A DNA stretch of 24,843 nt from Chromera velia. Lineage: Eukaryota; Sar; Chromeraceae. The stretch's first letter is position 1. Each line of letters begins with the position of its first letter. The stretch lies in contig JAHBMJ010000871.1 in assembly GCA_018398765.1 (NCBI GenBank), positions 1 through 24,843 of the forward strand, read 5' to 3'. Position numbers and translations under genes: made by a program. This document shows, piece after piece, positions 1-10,900 of this stretch. The notes beneath the pieces were generated by a model, which did not search any database, was not told the DNA's origin, and saw only the letters and a list, made by a program, of their open reading frames with translations.

Positions 1-224
1 GGGCACTATGCTAAGTGCTGTCCGCTGAAGAAATAGAAGCAGCAGTAAGCAGCAGCTGCAGGGGTGAGGGTGTAGAAAGGGACTATGTTCGAGCTCCGTG
101 AGGTTCCCCAGGGGACTTTCACGGACCAGGATTTTTAAATGGCCCCTGGGCCGCCCCCCCCCAGTTCCAGTCCAGCCGCTGGGGGGGGGCAGGGGCCAGT
201 GAGAAGGCTGGCAGTGGGCGTTTC

Positions 225-641
225 ATGAGGGCAACCTTGTGGAATACCGAGAAGAGGGGGTGGGAGTTTGGCGGGGAAACGGATGAAGTGAGAGTTGTCA
301 CGTCTATTGAGTCCTTTGTCGGTGTGATGGGGGAAGACGATGGAGAGATGATTGCCGATTCCGGGGCCTCGAAGAGTCTCGTTCCCCCCTCGTTTGACAG
401 GTATATTGTTTCGTATGTTGACCAGGCTGTCTCGTTTCGTCTCGTCTCTGATGCTGCCCCCCTCTCTGTAAGAGGGGTCAAGACATTTCACCTTCCGTTT
501 GTCGATGAATGGGGTGGTGTGCGCATCGTTTCTGAGGAAGGGTGTAGTCACGAGTCAATCGGTTGTCCGTTGTTTGCTTGTGGAAGAAGAAAGTTGTCTC
601 TCCCAGGGGAGGAGAGTCCCTCTGAACCTGGGTGGGTCTGA
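225..641 (+). pseudogene. Copia polyprotein, gag end and retropepsin-like protease segment
   Basis: The retropepsin-type active site D-S-G-A-S starts at codon 45 (Asp codon 357-359), preceded by hydrophobic M-I-A as is usual for this fold. The frame is open upstream of the ATG at 225 back to a TGA at 99-101, so the ATG is probably internal to a longer Gag-Pol reading and not a true start. The segment ends at TGA 639-641, after which the same frame continues directly into the integrase part, so that stop is a nonsense change or a readthrough site and not a real terminus. Upstream, 154-162 is a run of nine C and 181-189 a run of nine G, which could hide indels. No CCHC zinc knuckle of Gag is visible in the available sequence. 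Confidence 0.75.
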
Positions 642-1220
642 TTGAAGGATGTGCATGGGGAGAGGTTTCGTTCTCCTGTTGATCAGACGGGCAATATTCC
701 AATTCTCCGTCTTACGAAGGTTGAGGAAGCAGTTGTTGCTGCCAACGTTTATGCTTCTGTTTCTCCTTGTCCCCTCCGACAGTCTGCTCTCTCTGGGCAG
801 GCAGAGATTTCTCCTGAGAACAGATCGCACCTTTTGTTTGTCCTTCACTCCCGTCTCGGTCATGCGACTGGGCAGCGTTTGGAGGCCACATTGAAGGAGA
901 AGGAGGTGGGGGTGCAATTTTCTGCGAAAGAGTGTAAAGAGGTGAGAAACACGTGTAAGGCATGTCGTGTTGTGACCTTTCGGAGGAGAAAGTTGAAGAG
1001 AAGAGGTGTAGCAGCAGGGACGCGAAAGCGTTCTCGCAAGGGGGATGAGTCTTCTGTTCATGAGGATGATGAGGAAAAGGGGCCAGAGCCTGCGGGTCCG
1101 GGGGGGCAGTTCAACGCCGACATCTACCACGACCTGAAGGATATGAAGAAAAAGGGGATCGGGGGGTTTCGTTACGTGTCTATCATTGTTGATTTGCAGA
1201 CGCAAAGAAAATCGTTGTAG
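642..1220 (+). pseudogene. Copia integrase N-terminal part (HHCC zinc finger and start of catalytic core)
   Basis: This continues the frame of the protease segment. A pre-integrase zinc finger is visible as H-x4-H in LHSRLGH (about 847-867) followed by C-x2-C in CKAC (about 955-966). The catalytic core starts at FNADIYHDL (about 1110-1136), which holds the first acidic residue, followed by GGFRYVSIIVD. A lysine/arginine-rich insert with an acidic stretch (residues about 113-150) separates finger and core. The frame stops at TAG 1218-1220 but stays open on both sides. Just before the stop, the neighbouring frame reads AKKIVV, which resembles the usual continuation after the VD motif. Two small compensating indels around 1197-1219 are therefore an alternative to a single nonsense substitution. 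Confidence 0.8.
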
Positions 1221-3413
1221 GCACTGCGGCCGAAAGATCGCGCAGTACGTCACCTGATCTCCTGGACTCGTCGGTGGGAGAAAGCCGGCAAGGGGAAGCC
1301 GAAGGTTGTGCACTCAGACAACGGAGCCGAGTTCATTTCTGATCTCTACCTCTCGTTTTGTTCGTCAGTTGAGGGAGGAGGGATTGTAACTCAGTTTGGT
1401 CCTCCTCTCACTCCCGAAGTGCAGGCATTTGTTAAGAGAGTGAACGACGATTTCTTTTCTCTTTTGAATAAAGTTCTCTTTCAGCGTTCTCTTCCCTTTT
1501 ATCTCTGGCCTGTCTTCATCCCTGGAATTGCCAATTCTCTGAATGAGGTTGTTCACGGCTCGACTGGCCTTTCCCCAAATTGTACTCTTTTTGGTGTGCG
1601 TTCGGGGGTGCCCCCTGTTGCCCCGGGGGATGTTGTTCGCTTGTCTGATCCCTCTCGCCGTCAGCGTTTCGTTGCTGGCAGTCCTGTCAAAAAGAGTGAG
1701 AGAGCTCTTTTCGGGGGGGTGATCAGTCCACAGTCCGTCTCTGTGTTGATTCGGAGAGGGAGACAGTGGAGGCCTCTTCGCGTTCACCCCAGCCACATTC
1801 AGATGGAGTCGTGGTTAGGGGTGGAGCGTATTGATTTTGACAAAGATGGCAGAAGCGATGTAGTTGCAGAGAGGGAGACAGATTCCATTGTGGGGAGAGG
1901 ATCCGTTTGGGTTGGTTGGGGAGAAGAAAACAACCGGTCAGATGCAGACAATGCAGAGACTGGGGGTGAGGCGTCTGATGAGGACGTTTCTCATCCGGTC
2001 CGTCAGCTCCCTTGTTCTCCCCGAGGCGTTCGCGTGCCTCGTTTGCAGGGTGTTCTTGCCCGATGGTCAGATGAGGCCCTGTTCCCAGGGCAGATTGTGA
2101 GGGAGGGGGAAAAGCAAGTGAAGAGCATCATAGCAGCACGGTTGAAACAGAGGGATGATGGAAGTTTCTTTCCTGCCGAGCTGGAGACAGTAAAACAGAA
2201 AGACATTGTGGAGCGGTTCGAGCTCCCCGCTGATGGACAGCTTCCCCCTGCTGTGCTTGACAGACTTGCTGAGCAGGCACCTCCTGTGCCTGATCCTGTT
2301 CCCCCTGTCCCTTCAGACGAAGTCCCGGTAGACGTTGATGTCGTTGCCGACCAGGCAGCCAAGGAAGCAAATACCGCCGAGTTCCTTCGGTGGTCTGAGA
2401 TGTCCAAATCTCAGAGGAAGAATCAGATCCGTGAGCGCAGAAGGAGAAGAAGAGAGATAAAGGAAGCACGGATTGCAAAAGCCCTTGACACGCACTTTGA
2501 GATTGCGTGTGCAGTGATGAAAGGTGAGAGGGCGCGCAAGTTGCTAGCGAGAGAGAACGATGCGAAGGGGCACATTCTTGCCACCGAGGAAGAGATTGTA
2601 CAGGGTCTCTTCAAAGAGTCCAATCGAAAGGAACTCGCTCGTTGGTGTCTCTGTTCTGTATTTGATCTCTCTACACAGACACTGCAGATGGAGAAGGGGG
2701 TCAAGGCGATTACTCTTCGGTGGGTGAGGACCTGGAAGTTGAAGGAGGGAAAGAGGGTTCCAAAGTCTCGTCTCGTAGCGAGAGGGTTCCAAGACTCTCG
2801 TGATTGGTCGGTGCTTGAGACCTACTCTGGCACAGCAGACACAAGTCTGGCTAGAGTTGCCTTCCTCTGGGCCGTCTTAAAAGGTCTGCAGGCAGCCAAA
2901 ATGGACGTGTCAACTGCGTTCCTGCAGGTGCCCATGAAAGACGCAGTGTGGCTGCGCCTTCCGTCCAACCTCCCTGTAGAGGTCTATCCCGGCCTCCGTG
3001 CTGGCGTCTTCGTTCGCATTCAGAGGGCTGTTTACGGCCTGAAAGATACCTCAAAGGTGTACACGAGTTACTTCAAGAAGAAGGTTAGCAGCCTGGGGTG
3101 GACTGAGATTGCTGAGTCGATTTTGGTCAGAAAGAACAAGAAGGGTGAGATCGTTGCTTTGCTTGTTATGCATGTTGATGATCTTTTTATTTTTTCTCCT
3201 TCCGTTGACAAAGACGTGAAGCAAATCCAGGAGCTTTTTGACACAGACCAGCCAGAGAGAATGGACAATGGAGAGCTTCATTCTTATGTGGGCATGTCCA
3301 TTCGGATGCATCCTGGTGAGATGTTGCTTGACCAGTCCACGTATATTGAGGGAATGGTGAAGGGAGTGAGTGAAGAGGCAAAGAAGCCCTTGACTGACTC
3401 AGAGAAACTTTAA
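1221..3413 (+). pseudogene. Copia integrase C-terminal part, linker and reverse transcriptase
   Basis: The frame is open from 1221 through the ATG at 1308. The second integrase Asp lies in HSDNGAEF. The third catalytic residue, Glu in the usual V-E-R-x-N motif, appears as Lys in FVKRVN (codon AAG 1434-1436). A long charged and proline-rich linker follows (about residues 190-430 from 1308). Reverse transcriptase then shows VARGFQD, the first catalytic Asp in KMDVSTAFLQ (Asp codon 2904-2906), the VYGLK motif and HVDD (3171-3182) in place of the common YVDD. The reading ends at TAA 3411-3413, but the frame continues with recognisable connection-domain sequence, so the stop is a lesion. Confidence 0.88.
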
Positions 3414-4108
3414 GATCTCCTGTTGCCTGAGACTGCAGAGACTGATATATCCTTGCAGGAACAGCAGCAAAAGAATGTGGAGTGTTTGGGGTGGGCTGTT
3501 AAGACCCAACCTTCTCTTTCCTTCTTGTTTTCACACCTTTCCCGCTTCAATTCCCGTCCATCTCATGATCCGTTCTTGTGAGTGAGAAGGCTCTCTGGCA
3601 TGCATTTAAGACTTCCCATCCTCTGTCTCTTCGTTCTGCTCCCTCCCTTCCAGTTCTGTTGGTGTGGGGGGATGCGTCTTATCAATTGCACAAGAAAGAG
3701 GGTAGACTGGGTGTCGAGATGCAGTTGGTTGATGAAGGAGAGCTTACCAATCTTGATGAGATCGGTGAGTACAACACTGTGTATTGGCTGAGCAGGAAGA
3801 TAGGAAGAAAGCTAGGGTCTACGACTTCTGCAGAGCTTCTTGCAATAAGAGACGCAGTGAAGATGTCCTGGTCATTCATTCATTTTGTTCGAAAGTTGTG
3901 GGGTGAGATGCCTCCGGTTGTGGTGGTGACTGACTCTCAGCCGCTGATGCATCAGATTGGTTCCAAACAGTGCAAAAGCGAGCCAAGAATGCAGGGGGAG
4001 TTGGAGTACGTTTTAGAAAATTTGATGGAGTTGGGAGTAAAGGTTCGTTAGATCAAAACTGGGTCAATGCGTGCAGACAGACAGACTAAGTTCCTTCATT
4101 GCAGTTAA
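3414..4108 (+). pseudogene. Copia connection region and RNase H domain, frameshifted
   Basis: Frame 3 from 3414 to 3578 gives the conserved connection between RT and RNase H (ECLGWAVKTQP, then FLFSHLSRF). It hits TGA 3579-3581, while frame 2 picks up at SEKALWHAF, so an indel of one or two bases sits near 3578. RNase H acidic residues are visible in WGDASY, TSAELLAI and VTDSQPL, so the domain core is intact. TAG 4049-4051 falls where a Trp is usual before the I-x-T-G segment. The frame then runs 19 more codons to TAA 4106-4108, which I take as the ancestral end of Pol. Confidence 0.82.
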
Positions 4109-4151
4109 GCGTTTCTCTCTTTTAGTCTGTCTTCCTATTTGTGTTCAGTTC

Positions 4152-4161
4152 AGACAGGGGG
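4152..4161 (+). promoter_or_regulatory. Candidate polypurine tract of the copia element
   Basis: The ten bases AGACAGGGGG lie 44 bases after the Pol stop and are followed at 4162 by TGATTTGTG. A purine tract abutting a TG dinucleotide is the normal arrangement at the internal edge of a 3' LTR, where it primes plus-strand synthesis. The assignment is by position and composition only, because the matching 5' LTR is not in the window. Confidence 0.45.
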
Positions 4162-4640
4162 TGATTTGTGAGAGTAAACGCATGTATCCAAGCGTGCGTC
4201 AGGTGGGTGTCGGGCGTTCTGTAAGCGCGCCAGCCATCCGCACGAGTGAAAAGTATTGCGAGCGGCGTGATCGCATGTTTGAGTGCATTAACGTCTAACT
4301 CTTTGATCGAACAGTAAGACTGTACGAAGGCTCGGTCTGCTCAGTCGGTTCATGATAGCGAGCATCCTCAGATGGCAGTCTGATCAGTCTGTGTGTCAGG
4401 TTTGGAGCGTCGAAGTCCCGCGCATTAGATCGAATGTGCGGTCTTCGTTTAAGTGAATTCTAGATTGCCGTCTCCTTAAATTTCTCTGTCATTACTGAAT
4501 GGATTTTCCTGTCTGGACTGAGGACTGTGACCCAGTAGGTCAGACTTCCCGTTTAGCTGTTTGAGCGTTACCCATTTTCGTTACCTGACTGTTCTAGTCT
4601 GTTCTAGGTAACGTTTACCGTCACACTTCATTCATCCACC
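4162..4640 (+). other. Possible 3' LTR of the copia element (right end not defined)
   Basis: The segment begins with TG directly after the purine tract and contains no coding sequence of its own. It holds a perfect 8-bp inverted repeat, CGTTACCT 4579-4586 and AGGTAACG 4606-4613, whose loop is two near-copies of CTGTTCTAG. A terminal CA and a target-site duplication could not be identified, so the right boundary is arbitrary. Confidence 0.3.
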
Positions 4641-5866
4641 TGCAGGCCTAAGCAGATTCTGTTACTGCACACACTTCCTTTCCATGCCCCTCTTTTTCCA
4701 TGCACTCGCACGCCTAAACATTCACCCACACGTCGCCCAAACGGCTTCTGTTCACACACTTACTTACCTAGCTTTATCCACCGGCCCAAACAGCTTCTGT
4801 TCACATCTCTCCCTCTTGAACTTGCCAAGCGCTGAACCCATACGCGGTGAGCCTCTCCACAATATTTTAAAGCGAATACTATAGTATCCACAGTGACACA
4901 TACTATATATAGATAGTATTTTGCATCCCAAATCCTCACGTGGAGGTAGAAGGAAGTCGAGAAACCAGGTGCTGAAGAATGACAAGAGGGGCCAAGTAGA
5001 GAGAAAGAAGATGGGCAAAAAGAGGTTCCTGCAGATCAAATTAACCGTTTTTCCTCTTTGTCAAGCGTACTTAGTCGTGGTGTGGCTTACTCCTGACTCT
5101 GTAAGGTGGCATATCTTAACTTGCCACTGAGCTTGGTGGCATAGTCAAACAACGGAGCAATTCAGAACAGCTTCACTTAGACGGTGTGCTTTATTGCCTT
5201 CCTTGAAAACTACACAGATGATCGAATCTATGTACAATTCCCCTCCATGTGTGTTTTTGCATGTGTACCGATACATTAAGGTTCGACAAAAGGTGCATGT
5301 TCGCCATGCACGCGCTGTACAGTTGCATGCCGGAAAGCGCGGGTCCCGAAAGGCAAATGTAACCCGATTTATTGGTAATTCGACTTTTTTTTTTCCATAG
5401 GTGCGGCTAAGGGCCTTAACAGATACCATGGCCGGGGGCCACGGCACACCAACTTCTGACGCACGCGCGGTGAGAAGTTCCGAGTTTTTGCGAGAGGTCC
5501 TTGAAAGCGAACTATAGGCACATGCAGTTCAAAGGAAAAGAAAGCGTTGATTGTGAAAGTGCCCCCTCTTTCCGGGGCCATGGGTTCATCGCCCGAATTT
5601 TGGCTCGGAACCCAAAAGATCAGACCCGCGCTCAAAAAATTTGCCACTTCATTGCATTTCTGCTGAGGCAGAAGGTTCACAAGAGTGTACATCGTGGCAT
5701 TGCCAGAACTTGCTAAGGCTTGCTTTTGTGTCTCAAGTTAGGCATCATATTCGTGTATGTCAACAAGAGCTTGTGAAGGCAAGAAAGACGACAAAAGACC
5801 CAAGTTCCAAAAAGATTTCCCGACCCCCTGTTCTGACCCCCCTGTCAAGTGCAAACAGCACTCCCA
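4640..5866. other. Non-coding stretch upstream of the AlkB-like gene
   Basis: No ORF here looks like protein. Between about 4646 and 4815 there are three imperfect copies of a segment around CAGCTTCTGTTCACACACTT, two of them about 48 bp apart. At 4899-4918 there is a short AT hairpin (ATACTAT/ATAGTAT, 6-base loop). The last few hundred bases should contain the promoter and 5' UTR of the downstream gene, but no TATA or initiator element could be assigned. Confidence 0.4.
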
Positions 5867-5950
5867 ATGGCTCCTGCCAAGCAGACCGCTCAGAAGTCCA
5901 CAGGAGGAAAGGCACCAAGAAAGCAGCCTGATCTCAAAGCCGCGAGAAAG
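5867..5950 (+). other. Histone H3 tail-like segment (H3 register 1-27)
   Basis: The codons after the ATG encode A-P-A-K-Q-T-A-Q-K-S-T-G-G-K-A-P-R-K-Q, then P-D-L-K-A-A-R-K. With Met removed, the lysines fall at positions 4, 9, 14, 18, 23 and 27, exactly as in H3, with no insertion or deletion. Three of the differences, R2P (CGN to CCT), T3A (ACN to GCC) and R8Q (CGG to CAG), can each be explained by one base change. This is consistent with descent from a real H3 coding sequence. Residues 28-37 (RPVPKATRRF) could be a shortened remnant of the H3 27-41 region, but that match is weak. Confidence 0.9.
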
Positions 5951-6943
5951 CGGCCTGTGCCAAAAGCAACTCGTCGCTTTGAGAGTTCTCTCTACGACCC
6001 ACTCTTTTCAGCCCCTCCCGTCTCTCCTGAAGACCTGGGACGTCTTGTTCAACCCCCAGTGATTTCTCCCAATGCCCAGTGGATTGAGCTCGCCCCTGGT
6101 CTCGTGCACGTGAAGGATGCGATCACTGAAGAGCAGCAGGTCATCTTGGCACGTCACGCGCTCTACAGAGGCTGCCAGACTCCCCCCCTTGGTTTCCGTC
6201 AGGTCATGAACGAGGAGACAGGAGAGCTTGGACCGAATGCCGAGCCCAACGCCGGCAGGGGTCGAGAGTATCTGGAGAAAGAAGCGCAGTCAGTTGAGGT
6301 ACAGAGGGTGGGAGAGGAGATTGCAAGAGAGACTGCAGCACGGTACCCCACTGACCTACCTGAGCCTGTCATCACCCACATCCTCACACTTCACTACTCA
6401 CGAGGCAACCCAGGCTTCGCTCGAGTCTCACCAGGGATCTTCTGGCACAAGGACGACGGTGCCAACGACGGGCACGGCACCGCCCCTATTTTCGCCCTCT
6501 CTCTCGGGGAGAGCTGTCGTTTTTTGATGATGGAGAATTGGAGGTTTGTGGGGTACAAGGAGAGAGTGCAGAATGGAGAATTGCACGACATCACTCTCGA
6601 ATCAGGTGACCTTCTGGTCATGGGGGGTCCCTCCCGTTACATCCACCATTGCATCCCGGGTATGAAGAAGGGCAGCTGCCCCGACCATCTGAAGGCCATT
6701 CTGGGAAGTGCCCGTGTGAACATCACATGGAGGAGCGCTCCTGGAGTCAACGCAGCCGACTACGTGAGGCAGCAACTGAAGCCCTCGAGAGGGAAGAAGA
6801 TCGGCATCAAGAAGCAGAAGACAACCTCTCCTGCATCCTCCTCCTCCTCCTCTTCCCCTTCTACATCATCATCTGCTGCTGCTGCTGCTGATTCTCTTCC
6901 TCCTCCTCCTTCTGCAGCTCCTGGTGTTTCTCCCCCCCCTTGA
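5867..6943 (+). CDS. AlkB-type 2-oxoglutarate/Fe(II) dioxygenase with an N-terminal histone H3 tail
   Basis: Intact single-exon gene, 358 residues. The start is the ATG at 5867; the frame is open to a GTG at 5849, but the H3-like match begins exactly at this Met. Residues 2-28 match canonical H3 residues 1-27 at 21 of 27 positions, with KSTGGKAPRKQ and KAARK unbroken. R2, T3, R8 and L20-T22 differ. A basic proline-containing linker (about 29-40) leads to the AlkB domain (about 69-292). Iron ligands are H194-x-D196 in FWHKDD and H261 in YIHHC. R283 and R289 in the RVNITWR motif correspond to the 2-oxoglutarate-binding arginines of E. coli AlkB. The family removes alkyl or methyl groups from DNA or RNA bases, or acts on protein; the substrate here is unknown. 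The tail after about 293 is basic (GKKIGIKKQK), then runs of Ser, Ala and Pro. No histone fold follows the tail. Nuclear, chromatin-linked action is inference. Confidence 0.93.
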   Translation: MAPAKQTAQKSTGGKAPRKQPDLKAARKRPVPKATRRFESSLYDPLFSAPPVSPEDLGRLVQPPVISPNAQWIELAPGLVHVKDAITEEQQVILARHALYRGCQTPPLGFRQVMNEETGELGPNAEPNAGRGREYLEKEAQSVEVQRVGEEIARETAARYPTDLPEPVITHILTLHYSRGNPGFARVSPGIFWHKDDGANDGHGTAPIFALSLGESCRFLMMENWRFVGYKERVQNGELHDITLESGDLLVMGGPSRYIHHCIPGMKKGSCPDHLKAILGSARVNITWRSAPGVNAADYVRQQLKPSRGKKIGIKKQKTTSPASSSSSSSPSTSSSAAAAADSLPPPPSAAPGVSPPP

Positions 6944-7637
6944 GCTGTCTCTTGTTTTATCTCCACCGTGGCCTCTTCCATCTAATATGAGATGATCCAG
7001 AGATGTTTGTGTGGGTAAAAGCGGGGCTGCATGATCGAGAGAGGGCGGGCGAGGCGAGGGGGTAAGGATCTTCGACAAACAGGGAGGGGAAGAGACGGGA
7101 AGGGGGCCTCCAAAATCGATTGAATGAAGATTGAGGAGACTTCCGCATGTGTGGTGATGTGGAGGCACAAGAGAGAATTAAGACAAAACAAACATGCATC
7201 ATGTTGACCCGATGATCGTCTGTGGTTGTTGCGACGAAGTCCGTGATTGCATGATCAGGTGACTGCTCGAATTAATTTCAGGACGTGGGATTGTGAATGC
7301 CTACCTGTGTTCTGAAGTCTTCAGACAGAGAGAACACGCCGACAAGGCTGGCTGGTTGCATCGAGAATTGAGATCATGTGAGGTTGATAGAGGATCGAGG
7401 TATTGCAGATGGATTCTGTGTATCAACATTCGGACTGCGAGGTGTCGGGAAGGGAGGCGAATGAGGATATTCAATCTCAGAAGGGGAGAGGAAATCAAAG
7501 TTCCCATCTGTATTCCTTCCTTTCTTCCTTCCTTCCTGCATTCTGTTCCTTTCACCCTAGTCTGCGTACTTGTTTGTTTTCACTTGTGCGTGCGCACACG
7601 CGCAAGTGTGTGTACATGTGTGTCTCTCCCTGTGTGA

Positions 7638-7639
<2 letters not shown>
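6944..7639. other. 3' flank of the AlkB-like gene, non-coding
   Basis: No supported gene. This should include the 3' UTR of the dioxygenase. A TTCC/TTCT-rich patch lies at about 7516-7540. At 7581-7608 there is an imperfect palindrome (CACTTGTGCG and CGCGCAAGTG, 9 of 10 pairs, 8-base spacer). No clear polyadenylation signal was identified. Confidence 0.4.
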
Positions 7640-7676
<37 letters not shown>

Positions 7677-7682
7677 CGCGCG
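7640..7682. repeat. Alternating (TG)n(CG)n tract, possible Z-DNA
   Basis: Forty-three bases of unbroken purine-pyrimidine alternation, roughly 28 bases of TG followed by 15 of CG. Both dinucleotides favour left-handed DNA and CG is the strongest. Confidence 0.9.
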
Positions 7683-8115
7683 TTCCATCCTTTCTTTGAT
7701 TCGACGGGCACTGTAAAGAGCACTCCAAGGATCCTAGGAATATGTGTGAGGTGCGAGTGTGAGGCTGTGAGCTACCCCCCTCTTTTGCATGTTCTTATCA
7801 CTTGTAAATGACAGTAAATCTAAAAGTTGTAATCTTTTGGTAGTCGGAACTAGAGTCGTGAAAGGCAATATACTCAGATCTTTATAGATAATTTGCTAAA
7901 TCGGATTATATAGGCAAAAACAATTAAATAAGATTGATTTATATCTATACGTTTGCATGTCTAACTGGCCATGACAATGCATGGTAGGTTGCATAATATT
8001 GCATAAATAATTGAAACATCTGATACTACGTTACTAGTTTACATACATTACCCCCCTGACACTCAAGGCTACTTAAAATTTTGTGCTGCTCAAAAATTTA
8101 TTCTTAAAAGGCCAC
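7683..8115. other. Non-coding stretch becoming AT-rich
   Basis: No ORF of interest. From about 7800 the sequence turns AT-rich. Positions 8083-8109 match a second copy at 9194-9220 (23 of 27 bases), so this is the left member of a dispersed repeat pair. Confidence 0.4.
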
Positions 8116-8279
8116 GCCATGTCTTAAAAAGCCGCACCGCAGGCGCAGCCTATGTCTTGAAAAGCGGTGCCGCAAGCGTGGCCTATATCTTGAAAAGCAG
8201 TGCCACAGACGCGGCCTATGTCTTGAAAAGCTGTGCCGTAAGCACAGCCTATGTCTTGAAAAGCCATACTGCATGAAAA
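8116..8279. repeat. 33-bp tandem repeat, about 4.5 to 5 copies
   Basis: Units start at 8116 (32 bp), 8148, 8181, 8214 and 8247. Each has the core GCCTATGTCTTGAAAAGC followed by a GC-rich half that varies between copies (GTGCCGCAAGCGTG-like). The 5' half is nearly invariant and the 3' half diverges. The last copy breaks down after AAAAGCC. No open frame runs through the array. Confidence 0.9.
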
Positions 8280-9145
8280 GCTTATAATATTATCTTGAAA
8301 AAAAATGTTATATACACGGCCTAGGCCTTAAAATATCTCAAAAAACCATTAAATTTGACTATAATTGTACAAAATACGATAAAAAAATATATATCACACA
8401 AAAAACTATAAAAATCAGCAATACTTTTACTAATTTCATCAGTGATACATGAATGAATTATTCATTCATTCATCCAACATTCAACCTAACACATCATTCA
8501 CTGCCTGAGTCTTCAGGGCCGGAATTTGCAAAGTTATCGAGACGACAAAGCTCTCAGTCATCCTGATGGGCGCCCCTACAGGCAGCCACGCGAAGACTTC
8601 CAACAGAAGACTCCAAGACGGAGTTGCTCGCAGGAGCATCCGGGTATACAACGATATCGGGCATGCAACTGAAAAGGAGGCGGCAGGTAAGATACAAGAG
8701 GATAAGTTGCTAACAGGGAGGAAAGCCGAAGGAGGAATAAATGACTTTCTGGATATGTACACAAATTCTGTGAGGAAGATGGGAGGATCAAAAAAGAATT
8801 GGCAAGAGAAACTGACCAACGCACGTTCAAGTTTTTTTTTTCTCCCTGTTGTATGGTAGCAGATTCTTGAACGTACGTTTAGATTTTTTTTTTCTGAATT
8901 TCGTACACGTGACATACCTGAACAACACGTGACACACCTTTGCATGACTCGCGGCCGCGACTGCGCTGCCCTCTGAAATATTGCGCAGTTGCCCTCCGAG
9001 CCTGCACGTCGTTGTCAGGGCTCCATGAATAAGCCCCGAGAAAAACACCGTACAGAAACTTCAGAAGCATGCCGGGGCCACGGTTTCTGGGGCTGTGTGG
9101 TGCTTCGTAAAGGCAGCGCGTCGTGTTGCGTGTGAGATAAATTTT
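8280..9145. other. Non-coding stretch with short inverted repeats; one unsupported ORF
   Basis: At 8449-8469 there is a near-perfect palindrome (ATGAATGAAT, one base, ATTCATTCAT). ACGTTCAAG 8823-8831 pairs with CTTGAACGT 8866-8874, and each arm is adjacent to a T run. An ATG at 8566 opens a lysine-rich plus-strand ORF of 97 codons to 8859. Its sequence matches nothing I recognise and an equally long ORF lies on the other strand. A consensus-like donor (CAG|GTAAGA, about 8690) lies within it, but I cannot show a spliced product. Confidence 0.3.
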
Positions 9146-9310
9146 AGCGGCACGAAATAGTGCCGCCGCTCAAAAATCCTAAGTTGAAATTAAGTGCCGC
9201 TTAAAAATTCAATCTTAAAAAATGTTTTCAAGAGCAGCTTGGAGTGTTGGGGGGATAACATATATATAGTGATAAGTGATAAGTGATTTAGTGGTGCCCT
9301 TCAAAGTTGA
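9146..9310. repeat. Hairpin and second copy of the GTGCYGCTYAAAAATT repeat
   Basis: AGCGGCAC 9146-9153 pairs with GTGCCGC 9160-9166 across a 6-base loop. Immediately after, 9194-9220 repeats the motif seen at 8083-8109. A GATAAGT triplet-like tandem lies at about 9271-9290. The two copies, about 1.1 kb apart in the same orientation, might mark the edges of a non-autonomous element. Confidence 0.5.
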
Positions 9311-9780
9311 GCACTGTCGCCATTTTGTCTTGTAGAGGTCGCCTCCACAAATAGCAGAGGGGTGTACCTCATCACTGAGGCTCAGACCACACCCCGTGGC
9401 CCGCCTGGTTTCCTAGGCTGCTAACAAAAAACAATCTGTCTATGCTTTATATGCTGTGGTCAATGGGCTGCTCAGAAGGGCTAGCAGAAAGGACTGTTCC
9501 AAAAATCGATCCAATGACACAGGACGAAAGGACACTTTGGCTTTGTGCACACCCTCTTTCTATTCTTCTCTCAGCAATTTTTCCTTCTCCTTCCTTCAAG
9601 CTTCAGCTATCTACCTGCTTCTATCGCCTCCAAGATGGTTACGACTTCGATTCATAACCACAAACCACCCATATAATCTTACCGTCTAACCCAACTTATC
9701 TATGCCGGCCTCCTGGCCCTTTCTAATCCATACCTGCACACCTACTACCAATAATCCCACACACACAGATAATATTGGTA
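9310..9780. other. Non-coding stretch, nothing recognised
   Basis: Short ORFs occur (for example 9442-9657) but none has recognisable domains or protein-like composition. The sequence becomes pyrimidine-rich and then AT-rich toward 9780. Confidence 0.4.
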
Positions 9781-10900
9781 TCTGTATTCTTCTTTTTGTA
9801 CATTATATGAGGGCAAATTCCCGGGCAATATCCAAAACCTTAATCCTATGTTATACTAGATGTTATATCCCATCGTATTAATTCTAGATCATATAATAAT
9901 AATTTTAGTAGTAATTTTGCATAATTATATTTAAAAATGACATCTTGATCTGTATATTATTAGCAATCAATCCTAGCAAACAATCAATAGTATAATATAC
10001 TAGTAGTTGTGAACAAATAGAGAATAGCTAGGAGAATGGGGTTAATTAAAATTATTAAAATAACAATTAACAAATAATTATAAATAATATATTATTACCA
10101 AGCAATCTCAATCATTGCTAACCAAACAACGCTAAAAACGATCGAGTCGGATCGATGTCTGCAACTAGCTATCTGCAATATGAGTTTATTTCAGTCAATC
10201 AATAATTGAGACAGTAGTAAACATTACTGGCGTGTAGCATCTACACTGTCTGCATAAGAATAACGGCTCTAGAATAGTAACGAGGCGGCCGTCAGGCCGC
10301 TAAGTTACGGTTTTTTAGTAACTGAAGCTTTAAAATAGTGAATTACGGAAAAACAATTCCATATCATAGGATTAAATAGGATGGGCTAAAGGATAGCTAG
10401 GAGGATAGGATTAATGATTAGAAGATTGGCCTCTTGCCCCAATTGATTGATTGATAGGTTCCGCACAAGGCCTTCTCGCTATGTCTATCTGTTGCCAGAG
10501 CTAGCAGGGCCGCGATACTCATATTGCACTGATTGCAGCAAAGATTGCATATAGTATGTTTAATGTAAGAACTCTGTCTTTATATCAATATTTGCTCAAA
10601 TTTCTAAGAACTTTAAACTTTTTTTATGCACTACAGATCATAAGAAAAGGTTTCAAAAGTTTAAAATTACGGTCTATATATATTTTTATAGAATAAAGTT
10701 AGTACGTAGTCTGTAACGTAGAATCTAGAGAAGTATAAATTCTTTAGTAAAACCCACTAAAATATTTTAAATTTTATTATTAAAATTCTAAGGTTAAATT
10801 TTACTATTATAATTCCATTAAATTTCTGGGGAATCTAGTGGGGAATTTAACTTGGTCTTGTAAAGTACGGATCTACAGAATTCCCATACAACATTGTTTC
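9780..10900. other. AT-rich island with no ORF
   Basis: About 1.1 kb of markedly AT-rich sequence without any ORF of 60 codons on either strand, unlike the flanks. It contains GC-rich islets, notably the hairpin at 10277-10308, and many near-repeats of GATTGATTGAT- and TAATTATA-type words. It could be a replication or matrix-attachment region, an old organellar insertion or a decayed element; the sequence alone does not decide. Confidence 0.5.
10277..10308. other. Strong two-stage hairpin followed by a T run
   Basis: GTAAC 10277-10281 pairs with GTTAC 10304-10308. Inside this, GCGGCC 10285-10290 pairs with GGCCGC 10295-10300 around the loop GTCA, leaving a symmetric 3x3 internal loop (GAG/TAA). 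GGTTTTTT follows directly. The shape is that of an intrinsic terminator, but no transcribed gene leads into it. Confidence 0.75.

Follow-up and report, generated by a model that had tools for sequence, protein, structure and literature searches.

An open reading frame of Chromera velia, found on the + strand at 5867-6943 of the window (the whole stretch of 24,843 nucleotides analysed here), encodes a predicted protein of 358 amino acids, in which the tail sequence of histone H3 stands in register ahead of an AlkB-type dioxygenase domain. To judge from the sequence, this long stretch of H3 tail very probably came from an H3 gene, and it now sits on an enzyme that would, by its family, act on DNA or RNA methylation. 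The likeliest role of the tail, if far from an assured one, would be that of an import and chromatin-address tag on a fusion of an H3 gene 5′ end with an AlkB gene. With such a tail, the enzyme may be treated like a histone and so be directed to the nucleus or to the chromatin machinery.

The frame starts with the ATG at 5867, its stop codon ends at 6943, and it contains no internal stops. The first-pass annotation had proposed an uninterrupted frame leading from an H3-like tail into a complete AlkB domain, and the predicted translation agrees with this. The nearest in-frame stop upstream lies at 5834 with no in-frame ATG in between, and position 5867 is therefore the sole ATG start that does not call for an unseen upstream exon. 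The following features were assigned:

5867-5950, + strand: H3-derived N-terminal tail, residues 1-28 (Met plus H3 residues 1-27), with 68 of 84 bases identical to the H3 gene C1406 of the same genome.
5894-5926, + strand: unchanged block K9-Q19 (KSTGGKAPRKQ) including K9, K14, R17 and K18, taken from the list of changes relative to C1406.
5951-6070, + strand: linker, residues 29-68, with undetectable H3 similarity and low model confidence at residues 32-42.
6071-6751, + strand: AlkB (2OG-Fe(II) dioxygenase) domain, residues 69-295, assigned by PF13532, the actinobacterial homologue and the nearest structures.
6446-6454, + strand: HxD iron ligands H194-K-D196, from the alignment.
6647-6649, + strand: distal iron-ligand histidine H261, from the alignment.
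6713-6733, + strand: RxNxTxR motif, R283-R289, from the alignment.
6752-6943, + strand: basic patch followed by a Ser/Ala/Pro-rich low-complexity C-terminus, residues 296-358 plus the stop codon, from the charge count (8 Lys or Arg in residues 296-330).

The assembly searched comprises 177.8 Mb in 4040 contigs, and three full H3 genes (C1406, C2707 and C858) were found in it. Residues 1-28 of the fusion protein are identical to each of them at 22 of 28 positions without gaps, so the earlier claim of an H3-like tail directly after Met (21 of 27 identical, gapless) holds against the organism's own histones. Relative to C1406, the tail carries the changes R2P, T3A, R8Q, L20P, A21D and S22L (H3 numbering); it keeps all six H3 lysines and the intact K9-Q19 block, and the position of H3 residue 28, which is Thr in the H3 of this genome, is Arg in the fusion. 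Over the 84 bases of the tail, 68 are shared with C1406, 65 with C2707 and 61 with C858. A DNA search of the whole assembly with the open reading frame returned 21 matches, namely itself, two H3 genes and 18 low-complexity places matched by the 3′ part of the frame (within bases 959-1065). Bases 1-84 matched C1406 with 81% identity (E = 1e-13) and C2707 with 77% identity (E = 1.2e-9). The best local DNA alignments to these two genes run from one base before the ATG to the K27 codon, and that to C858 extends a few codons beyond, with gaps. Past base 84, comparison with the three H3 genes revealed no H3 similarity (scores of 17, 23 and 23 against shuffle means of 19-20; 98, 10 and 9 of 100 shuffled sequences scored as high).

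Protein searches of the genome were performed exon-wise with only the best candidates scored, and a further copy could be missed; within this scope, no other H3-tailed non-histone frame was detected. An H3 protein query (E up to 1) found eight places: the three full H3 genes, three partial H3-like sequences, the fusion (residues 1-29, 76% identity, E 0.0018) and one place with an E-value of 0.7. The tail as query (E up to 10) retrieved, besides its own locus, C1406, C2707 and C858 (E 1.2e-4 to 3.9e-4). When the whole protein was compared with the PDB using phmmer, H3 chains matched about residues 1-30 with E-values from 1.6e-4 to 9e-4 among the 60 listed of 144 matches. The histone fold (PF00125) is absent from the three Pfam families listed for the protein at E up to 1; therefore, the fusion protein is no histone. 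Elsewhere in the assembly, C1557:13526-13831 (L018) encodes a divergent H3 with 61% identity over residues 32-135 and an unmatched H3 tail, perhaps a centromeric variant, and light-harvesting proteins (PF00504) gave 58 exon-wise matches, the mark of a photosynthetic eukaryote; one of these pieces, 175 residues long, reached no more than 121.6 bits against PDB chains, which is far from identity. None of 4227 Rfam families reached its gathering score in the window or in the surroundings of the H3 genes C1406, C2707 and C858.

The remainder of the protein matches PF13532 over residues 145-289 (E = 1.1e-17) with 65.4 bits against a curated cut-off of 31.2. In an alignment of 36 rows, H261, R283, T287 and R289 are invariant, and H194, D196 and N285 are nearly so. 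The HxD...H residues constitute the iron triad of such enzymes, and RxNxTxR is their 2-oxoglutarate motif. The domain match and these seven residues confirm the complete AlkB domain described from the letters alone. The AlkB part (a query of 250 amino acids, 6071-6820) shares 30.4% identity over 86% of its length with an actinobacterial homologue (E 3e-8). A sequence search of the PDB placed the rice protein 5xeg first (E 1e-5), followed by E. coli AlkB (E 0.007) and chains named ALKBH1 (E 1.1 to 1.5), and the NCBIfam AlkB equivalog scored 32.7 against a cut-off of 267. An AlphaFold2 model computed from the 36-row alignment had a mean pLDDT of 67.9 and a pTM of 0.66; the structure alignment (A2) was hand-picked and includes 32 of 80 bacterial and three of four viral loci. 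Mean confidence was at least 85 in blocks 51-100 and 241-290, and 50, 53, 58 and 46 in blocks 1-10, 11-20, 21-30 and 31-40; the values of 50-58 for residues 1-30 are as expected of an exposed flexible tail. The top Foldseek matches of the model were rice ALKBH1 (5xeg, titled OsALKBH1), 6ie2, which is a methyladenine demethylase, and E. coli AlkB (best E 4e-8), with TM-scores of 0.23-0.52 among the 50 rows listed, often with a large rmsd; the model thus agrees with the double-stranded beta-helix fold of the family but does not decide the matter. We infer both the activity and the substrate of the product, a putative AlkB/ALKBH1-like Fe(II)/2-oxoglutarate nucleic-acid demethylase. PF13532 has five matches in the genome including the fusion gene, one of them under the cut-off; the four other places, some of which are exon pieces, lack an H3-like start in the frames displayed, and in a direct protein search of the genome the fusion gene was its own sole match at E up to 0.001.

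The tail likely originated by capture of the 5′ end of an H3 gene, an origin already suggested in the first-pass annotation and well supported by the DNA match, by an excess of codons shared with C1406 and by the differences that set the tail apart from each of the full H3 genes found. The 5′ coding end, from the start codon to K27 and nearest to the C1406 copy, would have become fused, with the reading frame kept, to a gene of the AlkB family. Among the 22 shared residues, 16 have codons identical to those of C1406, whereas 9.8 are expected when the shared residues are re-encoded afresh with the codon usage of seven coding stretches of this genome (P = 0.0018); the corresponding counts are 13 of 22 for C2707 (P = 0.14) and 12 of 22 for C858 (P = 0.26). 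This excess, together with the DNA E-value, points to descent from a C1406-like H3 gene. C1406 and C2707 differ from each other at four sites of the tail; the fusion has the C1406 base at three of them and, at the fourth, a base found in neither gene, which gives a hint of capture after the C1406/C2707 split, with sites too few for a claim.

A promoter or 5′ UTR in common with the H3 genes was considered and rejected, as the 800 bases upstream show no clear similarity: the fusion scored 25, 18 and 24 against C1406, C2707 and C858, values reached by 7, 99 and 12 of 100 shuffles. Among the H3 genes themselves, the upstream regions of C1406 and C858 scored 21 (reached by 55 shuffles) and those of the close pair C1406 and C2707 scored 655. 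Since C1406 and C858 likewise share nothing upstream, an old common UTR would have faded, and these comparisons lend no support to an H3 promoter having been captured recently. Location of the fusion gene within a retroelement was also rejected, because window positions 1-10000 contain no LTR pair; the sole direct-repeat family of at least 40 bases there is a tandem repeat with a 33-base unit, which lies downstream of the fusion gene at 8119-8283. Upstream open reading frames at 225-4051 (+ strand) resemble, by eye, a Copia-type retrotransposon polyprotein, for which an LTR pair was not found.

The searches revealed no close donor that would speak for the whole protein having come from a virus or a bacterium. 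The whole protein had no relative in the viral_contigs set, the AlkB part had none in genome_contigs, and 50,697 phage records gave no match. Matches to the AlkB part (E up to 1) occur in 27 of 72,556 plasmid records; three of them extend over 80% or more of the query, one lying under another annotated gene, and the N-terminal frames of five plasmid loci (L027-L031) have no H3-like start. A profile (A1) built from the window protein and five bacterial sequences, and leaning to actinobacteria, found four relatives among 46 candidate viral stretches and at least 481 among 597 bacterial ones, of which the best 80 were kept.

An assembly chimera or a wrong gene model would explain the fusion as an artefact. 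The gene is a single copy in one assembly and known from assembled sequence alone, and immediately before the ATG a run rich in pyrimidines that closes with AG (seen by eye) makes an unseen 5′ exon possible. However, a chimera would copy an existing H3 gene, whereas the tail differs at 16, 19 and 23 of 84 bases from C1406, C2707 and C858; since it diverges from all three full H3 genes found and yet remains in the reading frame of the AlkB domain, the assembler is unlikely to have made the join, and we consider an artefact of either kind very improbable. Basic leaders are common, and this speaks for chance or convergence onto an H3-like sequence. Against it stand the DNA match (E = 1e-13), the exact register from Met and the codon excess with C1406, and the DNA match in practice refutes this explanation, the probability of which is close to nil.

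For the function of the tail, we prefer a tag for import and chromatin addressing, perhaps one that is still acetylated, to full H3 mimicry. In the crystal structure of Kap123 with H3(1-28), K14 and K23 each occupy one of two pockets for lysine, no residue other than Gly or Ala is tolerated beside K14, and the middle stretch carries no sequence requirement (PMC5677370). The resulting H3-type localization signal reads Gly/Ala-Lys-Gly/Ala, at least six residues, then Lys (same source). The tail matches this pattern with G13-K14-A15, seven residues and K23, although the match is weak evidence because the motif is loose. The six substitutions leave G13, K14, A15 and K23 untouched, with K23 at its native spacing, and the site of S22L is described as a backbone contact to Kap123 with no strong residue preference (PMC5677370). 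The enzyme would ride the H3 import route through these kept importin contacts. The recognition stretch of GCN5 around K14 is G-K-X-P (PMC3344931), and it is intact in the tail, which makes acetylation of K14 plausible. By the Kap123 data, such acetylation would weaken import, hence the idea that K14 acetylation might gate it. Counting against an import role of the tail, the C-terminal basic patch alone could serve as a nuclear signal.

The first-pass annotation saw the enzyme as a mimic of H3, with H3 enzymes acetylating or methylating its tail, H3 readers binding it, and nucleic-acid demethylation thereby coupled to chromatin state. We regard such mimicry as possible but doubtful. The identity of 22 of 28 residues, the six kept lysines and the intact K9-Q19 block favour it. 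In H3, R2, T3 and R8 are contacted by the readers and writers of K4 and K9. The replacement of all three in the tail speaks against faithful mimicry of H3 around K4 and K9, and Arg instead of Thr at residue 28 is a further point against mimicry. K9-Q19 and the six lysines leave K14/K18 acetylation and importin binding possible. The intact GCN5 stretch (PMC3344931) also favours mimicry, as does the behaviour of rice ALKBH1, the nearest solved relative: it binds genes that carry the H3K4me3 and H3K27me3 marks, and the binding of PRC2 is impaired by it (PMC10469495), so that an AlkB enzyme on chromatin is not far-fetched.

It is less likely still that the tail is a relic of the capture, in which the H3 piece contributed the start codon plus a basic leader that does no harm, and is now drifting. 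Six amino-acid changes in 27, compared with zero or one between C1406, C2707 and C858 in that part of the sequence, agree with a relic, and one genome cannot prove constraint. In contrast, the frame is kept, and dN is 0.13 against a dS of 0.61 relative to C1406 (0.13 and 1.05 for C2707, 0.15 and 2.15 for C858), part of dS being contributed by the H3 branches. Simulated neutral change kept 22 or more identical residues with P 0.009 when all 16 base differences were placed on the fusion branch, and with P 0.042, 0.074, 0.15, 0.42 and 0.82 for 14, 13, 12, 10 and 8 changes on it. When all six lysines also had to be kept, P was 0.001, 0.013, 0.074 and 0.16 for 16, 13, 10 and 8 changes. By position shuffling alone, six changes sparing all six lysines have P = 0.19, as does the unchanged 11-residue run K9-Q19, which is non-significant by itself. 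Purifying selection on the tail is suggested by these values from one genome, but not proven.

A possible second chimera was found with an H4 query of the genome, which returned three H4 genes and an open reading frame at C3012:56582-57184 (+ strand; L125 1471-2073). The latter has an H4-like N-terminal stretch (approximately H4 residues 10-41, including GGAKRHRK) and then departs from H4. This stretch matches the H4 gene C1149 over 64 bases of DNA (score 53, shuffle maximum 25), and its comparison with the H4 gene C3751 gave a score of 24 equal to the shuffle maximum. The remainder has a weak histone-fold match under the curated cut-off (PF00125, E 5.5e-4) and is identical to the organism's H3 at 11 of 27 residues (E 5e-5 in a two-sequence comparison); a genome search with this part (E up to 1) found only itself and not the H3 genes. 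The best PDB matches of the whole protein are H4 chains, some aligned through residue 97. The protein possibly combines an H4 tail with a different histone fold, perhaps one like that of H3, but because its fold part finds only itself and its best PDB matches are H4 chains, it may instead be an H4 that has diverged strongly. The H4 stretch seen bound to Kap123, GGAKRHRK (PMC5677370), is retained in it, and K5, K8 and K12 of H4 are lost. If this protein is chimeric, importin contacts are kept in both cases, which favours the address-tag reading, although two cases are few. The broader idea that histone tails are transferable address tags (H3 on a demethylase, H4 on another fold), whose carriers would be imported, modified and read as histones, with activity or placement of the demethylase following H3 marks, seems rather improbable. 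A piece of 68 bases at C1187:17137-17250 (L126), 64 of them identical to the H4-like tail of the C3012 frame, has stops in the H4 frame and looks like a duplicated fragment.

If correct, the fusion would offer a natural experiment on the function of the H3 tail without a nucleosome (import, modification and reader docking). It would also tie histone marks directly and physically to base demethylation, a connection studied in rice through the binding of ALKBH1 at genes with particular H3 marks (PMC10469495). Searches of open-licence full-text literature on AlkB/H3 fusions, histone mimics and histone chimeras listed no AlkB protein with an H3 tail, and the earlier statement that no described protein of this architecture is known stands uncontradicted there.

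The fusion protein shares the PF13532 domain and the HxD...H and RxNxTxR motifs with the AlkB/ALKBH1 family (E. coli AlkB, rice ALKBH1 with PDB entries 5xeg and 5xoi, and human ALKBH1), is about 30% identical to its bacterial relatives, and adds an H3 tail and a Ser/Pro-rich C-terminus. With the organism's own H3 tails it has in common the start and 22 of 28 gapless residues; in contrast to the H3 genes, it has no histone fold, R2, T3, R8, L20, A21 and residue 22 are changed, and homology fades at K27. Histone mimicry by non-histone proteins is exemplified by the ARKT motif of G9a, influenza NS1 and the SNAG-domain factors bound by LSD1, and such mimicry usually consists of a short motif whose origin is uncertain. 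These proteins likewise carry an H3-like stretch on a non-histone protein, which is N-terminal in the SNAG factors as well, whereas the tail of the fusion is 28 residues long and very probably has DNA-level descent from an H3 gene. MacroH2A retains the histone fold and connects it through a linker to a macrodomain (PMC8015243); both proteins join a histone part to a globular domain, but the fusion keeps only the tail and carries it on an enzyme. The enzyme family and the kind of trick are known, and what is new is the architecture with its traceable origin.
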